Assembly (NCBI GenBank): GCA_028875655.1
Contig: JAPPCX010000112.1
Span: forward strand, 64,141 to 128,140
DNA from: Chloroflexota bacterium
GTDB lineage: Bacteria; Chloroflexota; Dehalococcoidia; Lucifugimonadales; UBA3495
Direction: 5' to 3'
Length of the DNA: 64,000 nt
A program made the position numbers and the translations under genes. Positions within the stretch are counted from its first letter, which is position 1. Every line of letters starts with the position of its first letter. Below the pieces are notes generated by a model. That model had not been told where the DNA came from. It saw only the letters and a program-made list of their open reading frames with translations, and did no database searches. Shown in pieces: positions 47,611 through 57,221 of the stretch.

Positions 47611-48357
47611 TTACATGGCGGTGCGGCCACCGTCGATGACGAGCTCACTGCCGGTCATAAAGGACGCTTCGTCAGATGCCAGAAACAGGACGCCGTAGGC
47701 AATGTCCTCGGGCTGGCCCAGCCGGCCGATGGGGGTGCGGTTGAGGCGATCCTCGCGGCCGCCGGCGGCCAGGAGGTCGGCGGTCATGTCGGTTTCGATG
47801 GTGCCGGGATGGACGCTGTTGCAACGTATGCCGTCGGCAGCGTGCTGGATGGCGGTCGATTTGGTGAACAGGCGCACCGCGCCCTTGGATGCGGTGTAGG
47901 CGGAGGAGATGTGGTTGCCAACGAGGCCGGCCACGCTGGAGATGTTGACGATGGAGCCGCCGCCGTTGCGGCGCATTTCGGGGATGGCGGCCTTGGTGCC
48001 CAGGAACACGCCCTTGGCATTGACCGACATGGTGACGTCCCAGTTTTCGTTGGTGGTGTTCTCGACGGTTTCAGGCATATAGACGCCGGCGTTATTGACC
48101 AGGATGTCCAGCTTGCCGAAACGTTGAACGGCGGCGGCGATGCCGTCCTTCCAGGACTGTTCATCGGTCACGTCCAGATGGACGTAGAGACACTCGCCGC
48201 CCAACTCGTTGATCTCCGCCTCAACCTGCCGGCCCAGGTCATCTCGCAGGTCGCCGATGACGACCTTGCAGCCCTCACGGGAGAACATCCTGGCCTCGGT
48301 GGCGCCCATACCGCGAGCGCCGCCGCTGATGAAAGCGACTTTGTTTTCCAGACGCAT
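47611..48357 (-). CDS. Short-chain dehydrogenase/reductase (SDR) 1
   Basis: This 248-residue classical SDR has the NAD(P)-binding SGGARGMG near residues 11-18, NNAGVY (about 88) and the catalytic Ser in NISSVAG with YTASKGAVR (Tyr-x-x-x-Lys). Asp in VVIGDLRDDLG suggests NAD preference. The end SELVIDGGRTAM is usual. It follows SDR 2 by about 97 nt and shares much of its sequence, so a tandem duplication is likely. The specific substrate is unknown. Upstream codons to 48441 have no ribosome site; GAGGT precedes 48357 loosely. Confidence 0.87.
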   Translation of the reverse strand: MRLENKVAFISGGARGMGATEARMFSREGCKVVIGDLRDDLGRQVEAEINELGGECLYVHLDVTDEQSWKDGIAAAVQRFGKLDILVNNAGVYMPETVENTTNENWDVTMSVNAKGVFLGTKAAIPEMRRNGGGSIVNISSVAGLVGNHISSAYTASKGAVRLFTKSTAIQHAADGIRCNSVHPGTIETDMTADLLAAGGREDRLNRTPIGRLGQPEDIAYGVLFLASDEASFMTGSELVIDGGRTAM

Positions 48358-48454
48358 ATTGTAAGTACCTCGTTTTCTGCGGGTTCGCTTGGATATTATA
48401 AGCGACGCCGGCGAGTTGCCGCGCTTTGCTCGCGACGACACTTACCCGGGGCGG

Positions 48455-49207
48455 TTACTGAGCGAACAGGCCGCCATCGATGACAAGTTCGCTGCCGGTC
48501 ATGAAGGAGGACTCGTCGGAGGCTAGGAACAGCACGCCCCAGGCCACGTCCTCGGCCTGGCCGACGCGCCCGATGGGAGTGCGATCCAGGGACGCCTGGC
48601 GGGATGCGTCGTCGCGGAGCAGGGTGGGCGTGGTCATGGGCGTTTCGATGATGCCGGGGTGGACGGAGTTGCAGCGGATGCCTTCGGCGGCGTACTGGAT
48701 GGCGGTGGACTTGGTGAACAGGCGCACCGCGCCCTTGGTGGCTCCGTAAGCGGGCGCGCGCCAACTGCCGATGAGTCCGGCGACGCTGGAGATGTTGATG
48801 ATGGAGCCACCGCCGGCCTTGCGCATTTCGGGGATGGCGGCCCTGGCGCCCAGGAACACGCCCTTGGCATTGATGTCGAAGATGTTGTCCCACAGCTCTT
48901 CGCTGGTGTCCTCGATGCCCACCTGCCGGTAGATGCCGGCGTTGTTCACCAGGATGTCCAGTTTGCCGAATTGCTGTACAGCGGTGTTGACGGCGGAGTT
49001 CCAGTCATCCTCGCTGGTGACGTCCAGGCGGACGAAGACGCATTCGCCGCCGGTTTCGTTGATTTCGGCCTCCAGTTGCCGGCCTTCATCCTCCAGCACG
49101 TCGGCGATGACAACTTTGCAGCCTTCGCGGGCGAACAGGCGGGCTTCGGCAGCGCCCTGGCCACGGGAACCGCCGCTAATCAGGGCAACCTTGTTTTCCA
49201 AACGCAT
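48455..49207 (-). CDS. Short-chain dehydrogenase/reductase (SDR) 2
   Basis: This 250-residue classical SDR shows SGGSRGQG (about 11-18), NNAGIY (about 88), catalytic Ser in NISSVAGL and Tyr-Lys in YGATKGAVR. Its C-terminal region, SGSELVIDGGLFAQ-like, is close to SDR 1 and to the SDR at 56445. All three share MRLENKV/MGRLDGKV, IRCNSVHPG and ASDE(A/S)SF(M/V)TG, so they are recent paralogues. It precedes SDR 1 on the minus strand. Such clusters are common in catabolic Chloroflexota genomes; the alcohol or ketone substrate is unknown. Confidence 0.87.
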   Translation of the reverse strand: MRLENKVALISGGSRGQGAAEARLFAREGCKVVIADVLEDEGRQLEAEINETGGECVFVRLDVTSEDDWNSAVNTAVQQFGKLDILVNNAGIYRQVGIEDTSEELWDNIFDINAKGVFLGARAAIPEMRKAGGGSIINISSVAGLIGSWRAPAYGATKGAVRLFTKSTAIQYAAEGIRCNSVHPGIIETPMTTPTLLRDDASRQASLDRTPIGRVGQAEDVAWGVLFLASDESSFMTGSELVIDGGLFAQ

Positions 49208-52369: not shown

Positions 52370-52855
52370 GTGCGCAACTTGCTTTGGGCGTTGATACTGA
52401 CCGCACCGCTAATCTTGTCGGTGGCTTGCTCGACCGGCGAGCCGGCGATGGACTTCGTCCTGACCACCTTTGACCAAGAGGAATTTCGGCTGTCGGAACA
52501 GCGGGGCAACGTGGTGGTAATCAACTTCTGGTATCCGTCGTGTCCGCCCTGCCGTGATGAGATGCCGGCTTTCCAGGAGGCATGGGAGCAGTACGAGGGC
52601 CGCAACGTGCGGTTCATCGGGCTGTTCGTGCCCCAGGGTTTCGACACCGAGGAATCGGCACGGGAGTTTGTCGATGAGCTGGGGTTGACCTTCGACTTTG
52701 CCACCGACGTGCGGGCGGAGGTGGCGCAGGCGTACGCGGTGCAGTATTTTCCCACTACCTATTTCATCGACCAGGCCGGGCGCGTGCATCTCATGGAAAT
52801 CAGCCGCATGGACGTTGACCGTCTGACCGAAATACTCGACGACCTGCTGGGCTGA
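52370..52855 (+). CDS. TlpA/ResA-like thioredoxin-fold protein, secreted or lipoprotein
   Basis: This 161-residue protein has an N-terminal hydrophobic signal (LLWALILTAPLILSVACST), whose Cys at about 21 could be a lipobox. The thioredoxin domain carries the CPPC motif in NFWYPSCPPCRDEM. LPTTYFID-like FPTTYFIDQAGRV supplies the cis-Pro. This is the ResA/TlpA pattern for extracytoplasmic thiol reduction, often in cytochrome c maturation. It overlaps the CopD-like gene by the TGATG pattern, so they should be cotranslated. A GTG start at 52370 is assumed. Confidence 0.84.
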   Translation: MRNLLWALILTAPLILSVACSTGEPAMDFVLTTFDQEEFRLSEQRGNVVVINFWYPSCPPCRDEMPAFQEAWEQYEGRNVRFIGLFVPQGFDTEESAREFVDELGLTFDFATDVRAEVAQAYAVQYFPTTYFIDQAGRVHLMEISRMDVDRLTEILDDLLG

Positions 52856-53328
52856 TGGACGTACTGGACATCATCCTGCTGATCATCCGGTGGGCCCACG
52901 CGCTGGCCGCGGTGGTCTGGATCGGCGGCAGCCTGTTTCTGCTGCTGGCGGGCCGGCCGGCGCTGCGTTCGCTCCGGAACGAGATCGGCGATAGCACTGG
53001 GCTGGTAGGCCGTGCGCTGGCGGTGGAGTTCCGGCCCATCGTCGCCACCGCCATCGCCGTGCTGATCGTGACCGGGGTGATCCTGACGGTGGACCGGCTG
53101 ACTTCCGAGGCCGCCGGCATCGCCTACACCGCCGTGCTGGTCGCCAAGATCGTGCTGGCGGTGTACGCTTTCGGCATCGCGTGGCTGCTGCCGCGCCGCC
53201 TGGAGCGACAGACTGGCGGCATACGGGGCGCGCTGCTGGGGCCGGTTACGTTGACCATCATCGGCGTGTTGGTGATCGGGCTGGCCGACGTGCTGACGTG
53301 GCTGTTCGAGCGCGGGTTGGTAGGATGA
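52855..53328 (+). CDS. CopD/DUF2269-like four-TM membrane protein
   Basis: This 157-residue protein has four membrane segments: IILLIIRWAHALAAVVWIGG, ATAIAVLIVTGVILTV, AVLVAKIVLAVYAFGIAWLL and LTIIGVLVIGLADVLTWLF. H-A-x-x-x-V-x-W-I-G-G in TM1 is the signature of CopD-like and DUF2269 proteins, which may carry copper or heme. It starts in the TlpA-like stop (TGATG), and its own stop overlaps a possible ATG for the Trm112-like gene. With the TlpA-like protein this could be a small redox/metal-handling unit at the membrane. Confidence 0.74.
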   Translation: MDVLDIILLIIRWAHALAAVVWIGGSLFLLLAGRPALRSLRNEIGDSTGLVGRALAVEFRPIVATAIAVLIVTGVILTVDRLTSEAAGIAYTAVLVAKIVLAVYAFGIAWLLPRRLERQTGGIRGALLGPVTLTIIGVLVIGLADVLTWLFERGLVG

Positions 53329-53348
53329 GTGGAGCGAGGAGGCGTAAA

Positions 53349-53570
53349 TTGAGAAGCGATTTGCTGGACATACTGGCCTGTCCGGTTTGCAAGGGGCCTT
53401 TGGATTTGCGGGCCGACGAAATTGCGCCGGAGGGGGCGGCGGATGCCGGTGAGGTATTGACCGGGGCGTTGACCTGCGCGACGTGTAACGAGGTGTATCC
53501 AATCGCCGGCGGAATCCCGAACCTACTGCCACCGGAGTTACGGGACACGGAGATCGCAGCGGGGCGGTGA
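53349..53570 (+). CDS. Trm112-family zinc-binding protein
   Basis: This 73-residue protein is Trm112/YcaR-like. ILACPVCKGPL and LTCATCNEVYPIAGGIPNLLP supply two Cys-x-x-Cys pairs for zinc. The tail IPNLLPPE is typical. Such proteins activate methyltransferases in archaea and eukaryotes; their bacterial role is less clear. I prefer the TTG at 53349, 6 nt after a perfect AGGAGG, which gives the normal MRSDLLDILACP N-terminus. The alternative ATG at 53325 overlaps the CopD-like stop and would add eight residues, including a basic stretch. Confidence 0.78.
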   Translation: MRSDLLDILACPVCKGPLDLRADEIAPEGAADAGEVLTGALTCATCNEVYPIAGGIPNLLPPELRDTEIAAGR

Positions 53571-53630: not shown

Positions 53631-54167
53631 TCAGCCGCCGGTGAGGATGGCGGCTACCTCCGTGGCCAGACCCTCGGCGCGTTCGCGCAGGGCGGGCCGG
53701 TCCAGGTTCTCGATGGGATGTTGGGTAAAGATCGTCGGGTAGTCTTCCGCGCCCCACATCTTGGCCATGCCCCTGGCGGTGGGGATGAACCGGTCGGTGC
53801 AAATGGTGGCAGAGGGGAGGCCGGCCTGCTCAACGTGGATTCCGTCGTGCACACTGCACGCGCTGCAGCTCCCTCAATCGCCGATGGCGACCACCACCGA
53901 ATCAACGTTGGCGACCAACTCCTGCAATTCCTCAGGGTCGGCGGGACGGGACGCGCTGGGCTTGCGGAGCCAGCGTACTTCACGGATTTCGTACCGGTTG
54001 CGGAGCACTTCGGCCAGCTCTTCCAGCAGCACGTCGGCGTTGCGCTTGCTGTCGTCGATCAGTCCGACCCGAGTGCCGGCCAGCGAGGGCAGGCGGGGCG
54101 CGCCGTCAAAGGGGGCGATGATCGGTTCGGTGACCGGGTTGACCAGGGTATATTGTTGGGTTGCCAT
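53631..54167 (-). CDS. UGSC-family selenoprotein (in-frame UGA read as Sec98)
   Basis: The frame from ATG 54167 runs 97 codons to a TGA (53876-53874) and continues without another stop to TGA at 53631, a total of 178 residues with Sec98. At the UGA the sequence reads VVVAIGD-U-GSC-SACSVHDGIHVEQAGLPS, which is the Sec-Gly-Ser-Cys motif (UGSC; homologues have CGSC). The downstream part SATICTDRFIPTARGMAKMWG and PHP-like HPIENLDR belong to the same fold, so the two parts are one protein. A bacterial SECIS-like hairpin starts 13 nt after the UGA. GGAGGTG lies 6 nt before the ATG. Sec98 and Cys101 would form the redox pair; reductase role is inferred. A partner gene lies 57 nt upstream. Confidence 0.82.
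53846..53860 (-). promoter_or_regulatory. Candidate bacterial SECIS element
   Basis: After the UGA on the minus strand, CGTGC (53860-53856) pairs perfectly with GCACG (53850-53846) with an AGTGT loop. The loop starts 19 nt after the UGA and has G at its second position. I recall that bacterial SECIS elements usually have an apical loop 16-37 nt after the UGA with a G among its first two bases, which this meets. A competing stem CTGCA/TGCAG nearby is also possible, so structure prediction is needed. Confidence 0.55.
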
Positions 54168-54224
54168 GCTTTGCACCTCCACGGGCAACGATTTCGGCAT
54201 TTACGAGCGAATCGCGGTTCGCAC

Positions 54225-55295
54225 CTACGGTAGTCGGATCGCTTTGGTTACGGCAGTGGAGCCAACTTTTGGCCCCCAACTGGGGATCACCGACGCCATG
54301 TTCGACTCCTCGCCGCCGGCGAATACTACCAGGATGTCCTCCGGTTCGGGAATCAGCGAGACCATGGCGGCTTCGTCGCCAGGTTCGATGTCGCCGCGCA
54401 GCACCAAGCCGCGCTTAAGGTCGGCCACGGAGCGCTGGATGTTGGCGTGCAGATACTCGCGTACCTTGTCCTTGGTCCAGTCCCGCCACAAGTTGCTGTT
54501 GCCGGCGAATGTTACCACAATCTGACCCTGGCGAATGCCGACGGAAACGTCGCCCACGGAGCCGGAGGTGGACATGGACGTGCCCAGGGATGACGCGACA
54601 TCGGCCATGGCGTACAGAATGGCCTCGGGTCGGCCCACGGCGCGGATCTGGCGGGGACTTTCGCCGGCAAAGACCGTAACCGTGCTGTCGCCAGCGTCGA
54701 AGCCGCGCTCAACGTGCAGCGGCGTCCAGTGGGTTTCGCCCTCGGCCTCGGCGATGCAGTAGGTGTACTTGCCGGGATGTCCGATGACGCTGCGGTCGAA
54801 AAGGCCGGGGATGGCGGCGCAGGCGTTCATCAGGATCAGGCGTATGGAGCGGCCGATGGTCCCGTTGGCGCGGTTGCCGGGGCCGAACAGATTGTTGCGG
54901 CTGTTCAGGCCGATCCGCTCGCGCACGGTGCCGTTGACGATGCAAAGCACCGCCGCGCCGCCCATGCTGGAGGATGGCCCGACCAGGTTGAACACAGGGT
55001 CCAGCATGGCCTCGGTGGCAGCCAGGACTACCGGGAAATACTCGGGCAGGCAGCCGGCCATGACGGCGTTGGCGGCGGCCTTCTCCACGGTGATGACACG
55101 GCGGCGTTCCGGGAGCTCGCCCAGTTCCTCATCGGGCGGGCGGGCGGCGTAGCCGATGAACTCGGCGACGCGCGCCGTGGTGGGCGGGACGACGGGCAGG
55201 CCGTCGCTCCAGCCCAGTTCGTAGCCCTTCTCGATGGCGGAGAGAGCGTCATCCCAGGAAGCGGTGGTGGTGTCGGTAAATGAAGTGGTGGTCAA
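54225..55295 (-). CDS. Conserved hypothetical protein, partner of the UGSC selenoprotein
   Basis: This 356-residue protein starts with a polar tail, then the conserved-looking ELGWSDGLPVVPPTTARVAEFI. Next come EKAAANAVMAGCLPEYFPVVLAATEAMLD and SSSMGGAAVLCIVNGTVRERIGLNS, a GPGNRANGTIGRSIRLILMNA segment, and later SGSVGDVSVGIRQGQIVVTFAG and PEDILVVFAGGEESNM. I cannot name the family. Cysteines appear in conserved-looking positions (for example near 90 and 145). It precedes the UGSC gene by 57 nt on the same strand, so they should be cotranscribed. It may act as a substrate-binding or catalytic partner of the Sec protein, by analogy with glycine reductase-like systems. Confidence 0.68.
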   Translation of the reverse strand: MTTTSFTDTTTASWDDALSAIEKGYELGWSDGLPVVPPTTARVAEFIGYAARPPDEELGELPERRRVITVEKAAANAVMAGCLPEYFPVVLAATEAMLDPVFNLVGPSSSMGGAAVLCIVNGTVRERIGLNSRNNLFGPGNRANGTIGRSIRLILMNACAAIPGLFDRSVIGHPGKYTYCIAEAEGETHWTPLHVERGFDAGDSTVTVFAGESPRQIRAVGRPEAILYAMADVASSLGTSMSTSGSVGDVSVGIRQGQIVVTFAGNSNLWRDWTKDKVREYLHANIQRSVADLKRGLVLRGDIEPGDEAAMVSLIPEPEDILVVFAGGEESNMASVIPSWGPKVGSTAVTKAIRLP

Positions 55296-56444: not shown

Positions 56445-57221
56445 CTACTGGGCAACACACCCGCCGTCGATGACCAGCTCGGCGCCGGTAACAAACGACG
56501 CTTCGTCGGAAGCCAGGTACAGCACGCCGTAGGCCACCTCGATGGGATGCGCCCGACGGCCCAGCGGCACCAACGCCAACCGCTGCGCCGCCACCTCCGG
56601 ATCGTCGTAGGTGGACGCGCTCATGGGCGTCATGATGGGGCCGGGATGCACCGAGTTGCAGCGTATGCCCTCGCGCGCGTACTGGATGGCCGTGGCCTTG
56701 GTGAACAGGCGCACGGCTCCCTTGGAGGCGTTGTAGGGATGGGAGCGCGACCAGGCTCCGGACAGGCCGGCGATGGACGATATGTTGATGATGGAACCGC
56801 CGCCGGCTCGCCGCATGGCGGGGATGGCCGCTTTCGTCCCGAGGAACACGCCCTTGGAGTTGATGTCCATCACACGGTCCCACTGCTCTTCGCTAGTGTC
56901 CTCCAGCGAGATGTTGCGGGCGCCGCCTTCGACTGAGATGCTGATGCCGGCGTTGTTGACCAGCGCGTCCAGCCGGCCGTAGCGTTCCTCGGCCAGCGCG
57001 ACGATGGCCTCCCAGTCGGATTCGACGGTGACGTCCAGGTGGGTGTAGGCGACGTCCAGGCCGGCCTCTCGGCAATCGGCTTCCACCTGCTGGCCCAGGT
57101 CATCGAGGATGTCGCCGAAGACTACCTTTGCGCCCTCTTTGGCGAACAGGTTGACCTCCTCGGCGCCCATGCCGCGCGCGCCCCCGCTGATGATGGCTAC
57201 CTTGCCGTCGAGTCGGCCCAT
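56445..57221 (-). CDS. Short-chain dehydrogenase/reductase (SDR) 3
   Basis: This 258-residue classical SDR has SGGARGMG (about 11-18), NNAGISIS (about 90), catalytic Ser in NISSIAGLSG and Tyr-Lys in YNASKGAVR. A small insertion (SVEGGARNISLEDTSEEQ) follows NNAGIS, absent from SDR 1 and 2. The shared segments IRCNSVHPG and ASDEASFVTGAELVIDGG show it is a paralogue of the pair at 47611-49207. It is followed on the same strand by the NHL propeller gene and preceded by HepT. The substrate is unknown. Confidence 0.87.
   Translation of the reverse strand: MGRLDGKVAIISGGARGMGAEEVNLFAKEGAKVVFGDILDDLGQQVEADCREAGLDVAYTHLDVTVESDWEAIVALAEERYGRLDALVNNAGISISVEGGARNISLEDTSEEQWDRVMDINSKGVFLGTKAAIPAMRRAGGGSIINISSIAGLSGAWSRSHPYNASKGAVRLFTKATAIQYAREGIRCNSVHPGPIMTPMSASTYDDPEVAAQRLALVPLGRRAHPIEVAYGVLYLASDEASFVTGAELVIDGGCVAQ

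Follow-up and report, generated by a model that had tools for sequence, protein, structure and literature searches.

A UGSC-family selenoprotein of a Chloroflexota bacterium and its 356-residue partner probably form a two-subunit selenoenzyme with a GrdB-like selenocysteine domain

Introduction

What is encoded by a bacterial reading frame that is broken by a single UGA, and what might its product do? The question is raised by a minus-strand frame in a 64,000-nucleotide stretch of a Chloroflexota genome (GCA_028875655.1, contig JAPPCX010000112.1; hereafter the window), for which an initial annotation, made from the DNA letters alone, proposed a functional selenoprotein with the motif U-G-S-C, where U is selenocysteine (Sec). 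The UGSC family is known from environmental selenoproteome work, which reports 255 sequences in the GOS survey and places UGSC among the most abundant selenoprotein families of surface water (PMC2398784); it also features in PMC9312934 and PMC13188914. UGSC-motif selenoproteins have in addition been reported in genomes, Blastococcus included, with a tRNA-Sec of anticodon CUA (PMC5330540). Mechanical gene calling breaks the selenoprotein gene, and the protein encoded beside it has no family model; it is this surrounding module that we consider worth following up.

Results and Discussion

A split frame encodes a predicted UGSC-family selenoprotein

The UGSC gene (53631..54167, minus strand) encodes 178 residues, running from an ATG at 54167-54165, with a GGAGG at 54180-54176 lying 8 nt 5' of it, to a terminal TGA at 53633-53631. 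Its sole interruption is the TGA at 53876-53874, exactly where the initial annotation had placed it, which would encode Sec98 in the context IGD-U-GSC, so that the U-G-S-C motif occupies residues 98-101 and the second invariant cysteine is residue 101. The annotation had also expected standard gene calling to report two fragments, and mechanical ORF calling indeed splits the gene into an ORF at 53874-54200 and a GTG-initiated ORF of 73 aa at 53631-53852. Each half of the read-through frame is recognised by itself as part of the family, with E-values of 4e-14 (upstream of the UGA) and 9e-22 (downstream) against NF041046, and of 4e-20 and 6e-26, respectively, against PF24696. The joined frame scores 151.7 bits against NF041046 (curated cut-off 125) and 186.6 bits against PF24696 (curated cut-off 25). 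Because either half alone matches the family and both cut-offs are passed by the joined frame, the frame is not a product of chance, and the earlier claim that the two sides of the UGA belong together is borne out.

Homologues align to both sides of the UGA, beyond the first 97 residues, and P11, U/C98, C101 and D108 are invariant among 84 of them. Three homologues have no UGA, and in all three a cysteine sits at its position, as the annotation had held for Cys homologues; their motifs are CGSC (Natrialba), CGAC (Luminiphilus) and CAGC (a Geodermatophilaceae metagenome-assembled genome, L101:5047-5565). In its length, Sec position, U-G-S-C motif, SECIS element and Cys homologues the gene resembles the NF041046/PF24696 family, from which it does not itself differ.

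A covarying SECIS hairpin follows the UGA

The annotation had drawn a SECIS-like hairpin, CGTGC-AGTGT-GCACG, starting 14 nt after the UGA. The position stands, but the element (53846..53860, minus strand; +17 to +31 from the U of the UGA) is better drawn as a 6-bp stem, CGUGCA/UGCACG, in which +17..+22 pairs with +26..+31 around the three-nucleotide loop GUG. We aligned, without gaps, 39-nt slices starting at the UGA from 82 Sec-encoding genes, and the same element recurs throughout this set: all six pairs are complete in 72 genes and five in the other 10, and 81 of the 82 have a G at one of the first two bases of the loop. Paired cells make up 97.7% of the stem, as against 88.4% after shuffling, and the covariation score is 0.242 (0.096 shuffled), a value that neither any of 500 shuffles nor any slid version attained. 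The three Cys homologues retain five, three and four pairs, too few sequences for a firm contrast.

Folding 52 nt of the window copy brings up a second stem as a rival to the SECIS, whereas in a 39-nt fold this competitor is gone and the SECIS stem wins. The same-gene contrast in folding energy downstream of the UGA is clear for the group (Wilcoxon p 3e-8) and modest for each gene (mean z -0.58), and for this reason covariation was weighted above folding energy. An Rfam scan of the UGSC locus returned two sub-threshold chance matches only. By its recurrence and covariation, this element is a genuine SECIS of the bacterial type.

The genome carries the selenocysteine machinery

A selenoprotein gene implies that the organism needs SelA, SelB, SelC and SelD, and the same assembly (3.45 Mb in 123 contigs, 97% complete) encodes SelB, SelA (553 bits), SelD (378 bits) and a tRNA-Sec with anticodon UCA, found by an RNA family model at 66 bits and by ARAGORN. 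In control genomes this model also picks up other tRNAs, and the identification of the tRNA-Sec therefore relies on the score together with ARAGORN. A second match to the model (L003, G000:C2:15408-15495) scores 54.9 bits, above the gathering score, and ARAGORN finds no tRNA there. The SelD gene (L014, G000:C89:5347-6270) has an in-frame TGA of its own, a single one that splits it, and therefore SelD is probably a selenoprotein too. Two PrdB/GrdB-like selenoproteins with the motifs U-P-L-C and U-P-R-C are also encoded (L123/L141 on G000:C68, and L142:4422-5876), and the genome holds at least eleven candidate selenoprotein genes.

The two gene-calling fragments would suit a genuine stop codon or an error in sequencing followed by a decayed remnant, but this reading is extremely improbable given a TGA at the same codon in all eight paralogues in the genome (below) and in 82 related genes, a downstream half that outscores the upstream half in the family profiles, and a covarying SECIS accompanied by the full Sec machinery. 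On the comparative sequence evidence, then, the window gene is a genuine UGSC-family selenoprotein in which UGA98 is predicted to be read as Sec. This much of the initial annotation holds; it missed, however, that the genome has eight copies of the gene, and that a near-constant partner lies upstream.

Eight UGSC genes each have a partner gene

The partner gene (54225..55295, minus strand) lies upstream of the UGSC gene and encodes 356 residues. Its product has no Pfam family, even at E 10, and finds in NCBIfam only two single-member entries (E 0.02-0.08), which we take as chance. D31, G32, P34, A80, G81, N144, G148, R149 and N157 are invariant among its homologues, while C82 (88 of 90) and C180 (83 of 90) are nearly so.

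A search with PF24696 recovers eight UGSC genes in the genome, each with exactly one TGA, and a profile of the 84 UGSC sequences recovers the same eight. All of them adjoin a homologue of the partner or, in one case, are fused to it; in the fused copy (L033:2897-4612) the two make up a single 609-aa frame with one TGA. The other seven UGSC proteins are 24-44% identical to that of the window and the other seven partners 31-41%, and from these low identities it follows that the pairs either are paralogues of long standing or were acquired separately, and did not arise by recent duplication.

To ask about linkage from the partner's side, we gathered 80 loci using similarity to the partner and nothing else, from among at least 582 partner relatives. 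They span Chloroflexota, Rokubacteria, Proteobacteria, Acidobacteriota, Nitrospinae, Binatia, Poribacteria and the haloarchaeon Natrialba, and at 75 of them a UGSC gene lies within the fetched flank. Of the five exceptions, L057 and L093 run out within about 0.2 kb of the partner, and L041, L051 and L109 have the partner but no UGSC gene in that flank. The partner is upstream of UGSC in 71 arrangements, downstream in 13 and opposite in one, and the gap between the two genes has a median of 77 nt. Across 301 Chloroflexota genomes UGSC and the partner each occur in 32, together in 31, with one genome having UGSC only, one the partner only and 268 neither (Fisher p ~6e-40, a value that ignores shared ancestry). 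The adjacency across phyla and the fusion are independent of that caveat. We conclude that UGSC and its partner very probably bind each other and form a complex.

The 2008 GOS paper describes a fusion, whereas here the stand-alone partner, linked at 75 of 80 loci, is the common form (PMC2398784). The fused copy probably has the same architecture as the UGSC/Unknown_1 fusion of Figure S1A in that paper, the comparison being one of descriptions. Many UGSC matches in Chloroflexota lie in frames of 550-620 aa, which suggests that fusion is frequent, and at three loci from Rokubacteria and a betaproteobacterium (L053, L068 and L102) two UGSC-partner pairs stand side by side.

The Sec domain is remotely related to that of glycine and proline reductases

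The window protein matches TIGR01917 (gly_red_sel_B) with an E-value of 5e-5, four of the eight paralogues hit this model, and there is no match to PF07355 (GrdB). The TIGR01917 score of 22.3 bits is far below the cut-off of 602.2, and membership of the GrdB/PrdB family itself (PF07355, TIGR01917, TIGR04483) was rejected. Aligned by hhalign with a GrdB/PrdB profile, built from GRDB-family sequences of other Chloroflexota that were each translated across the UGA, the UGSC profile reaches a probability of 93.7% (E 1.9e-7) over 85 columns, with Sec placed on Sec. These profile comparisons show the Sec domains of UGSC and of GrdB/PrdB to be remote homologues.

Like GrdB (PF07355) and PrdB, UGSC thus has a Sec domain with aligned Sec residues, often in a U-x-x-C motif; only 49 of the 84 UGSC homologues, however, have the motif's third, GrdB-like cysteine at residue 104. 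Unlike GrdB, it has no long N-terminal GrdB part, and its partner has no detectable resemblance to GrdE. A GrdE-like identity for the partner was rejected in an hhalign comparison with GrdE (probability 0.1%, E 0.4), and nothing was found between the partner and the GRDB profile. Since the partner has no detectable GrdE similarity, the analogy with glycine reductase is limited to the Sec domain, and UGSC shares that domain with GrdB/PrdB but would work with a different protein.

Taking these results together, we consider that UGSC and the adjacent 356-residue protein are the subunits of a selenoenzyme with a GrdB-like Sec domain, with a probability of about 0.85. A search of the openly accessible literature found no paper that describes the partner as a stand-alone protein or links UGSC to GrdB; the present analysis adds a near-obligate partner that lacks a family model, eight pairs in one genome and the connection to GrdB/PrdB.

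Predicted structures and other readings of the pair

The AlphaFold model of UGSC (pLDDT 91.7) is a flavodoxin-like alpha/beta domain in which Sec98 falls between a strand (90-96) and a helix (99-114), at the N-terminal end of the latter. Its best matches among solved structures have flavodiiron, lumazine synthase and receiver-type folds. These results bear on the proposal made in 2008 (PMC2398784) that UGSC has a likely thioredoxin-like fold; UGSC would then be a generic thiol-disulfide oxidoreductase with U-G-S-C as a CxxC-type redox pair. The invariance of both residues of the UxxC motif would fit such a role, as would a nearby ResA-like gene (52370-52855, on the other strand). Against it, the predicted fold is flavodoxin-like, with no thioredoxin chain among the listed matches (one could lie beyond them), the protein is remotely homologous to GrdB/PrdB, and a constant large partner together with eightfold paralogy is better suited to a substrate-specific enzyme. 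A generic oxidoreductase is on balance unlikely.

Somewhat less likely still is a hydratase- or hydrolase-like partner that UGSC protects or keeps reduced. The partner model (pLDDT 90.6) has in its C-terminal half a weak fold similarity to two-subunit fumarate hydratase and to cyclic amide hydrolases, and the near-invariant Cys82 and Cys180 would favour such an activity. However, no Z-score of these matches exceeds 6.7, over some 90 residues, and their TM-scores are 0.2-0.3, with fumarate hydratase, Toblerone-fold and tubulin entries weak and tied, which makes the hydratase match uninformative; nor do we take the model as a new fold. Searching solved-structure sequences with the UGSC and partner profiles gave chance-level matches only.

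A possible mechanism

For the two-subunit selenoenzyme, the following scheme may be envisaged. The SECIS just 3' of UGA98 would recruit SelB and tRNA-Sec for the insertion of Sec, giving a selenium subunit (UGSC) that would act with the 356-aa partner as the other subunit, the two being fused in some copies. The Sec98 selenolate would attack a carbon of the bound substrate, as in glycine and proline reductase, and Cys101 or an outside thiol would then resolve the selenium adduct, resulting in reductive C-X cleavage. Nucleophilic attack by Sec has been discussed for GrdB-type proteins, copies of which multiply with substrate specificity (PMC10838667), and the UGSC paralogues may likewise differ in substrate and serve different catabolic gene clusters. 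By analogy, a chemistry of selenolate attack and reductive C-X cleavage resembling that of glycine and proline reductase is conceivable for UGSC, and we put it forward tentatively.

It is with similar reserve that we suggest that the pair may represent a selenoenzyme class not recognised before, which would form a third branch next to the glycine and proline reductases. Were this so, a GrdB-type Sec domain would have been combined with an unrelated substrate-binding subunit, and eight or more duplicates per genome would each act on a different C-X bond in heterotrophs of the sea and of soils, Cys versions in haloarchaea included. The partner, the eight paralogous pairs and the homology to glycine and proline reductases provide concrete handles on the function of an abundant family.

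Gene neighbourhood

Same-strand neighbours of the UGSC-partner module are catabolic in character, comprising short-chain dehydrogenases, NHL propellers, luciferase-like monooxygenases, amidohydrolases and CoA transferases, and although the counts are raw and small they would suit substrate-diversified paralogues. The adh_short family, among the commonest, and NHL genes each account for 8 of 142 such neighbours. In the window, an NHL-repeat beta-propeller protein (PF01436; 55430..56494, minus strand, start codon uncertain) is encoded upstream of the partner and is possibly a member of the operon, outside the core pair. Further upstream on the same strand as UGSC, a short-chain dehydrogenase (56445..57221, minus strand) is a possible pathway gene. 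It is one of three mutually similar short-chain dehydrogenase genes, at 47611-49207 and 56445-57221, of which two are in tandem.

On the opposite strand, just past the 3' end of UGSC, the region 52370-53570 encodes the ResA-like thiol-disulfide protein (52370-52855), a weakly CopD-like membrane protein and a short ORF, the last of which presumably resembles Trm112.
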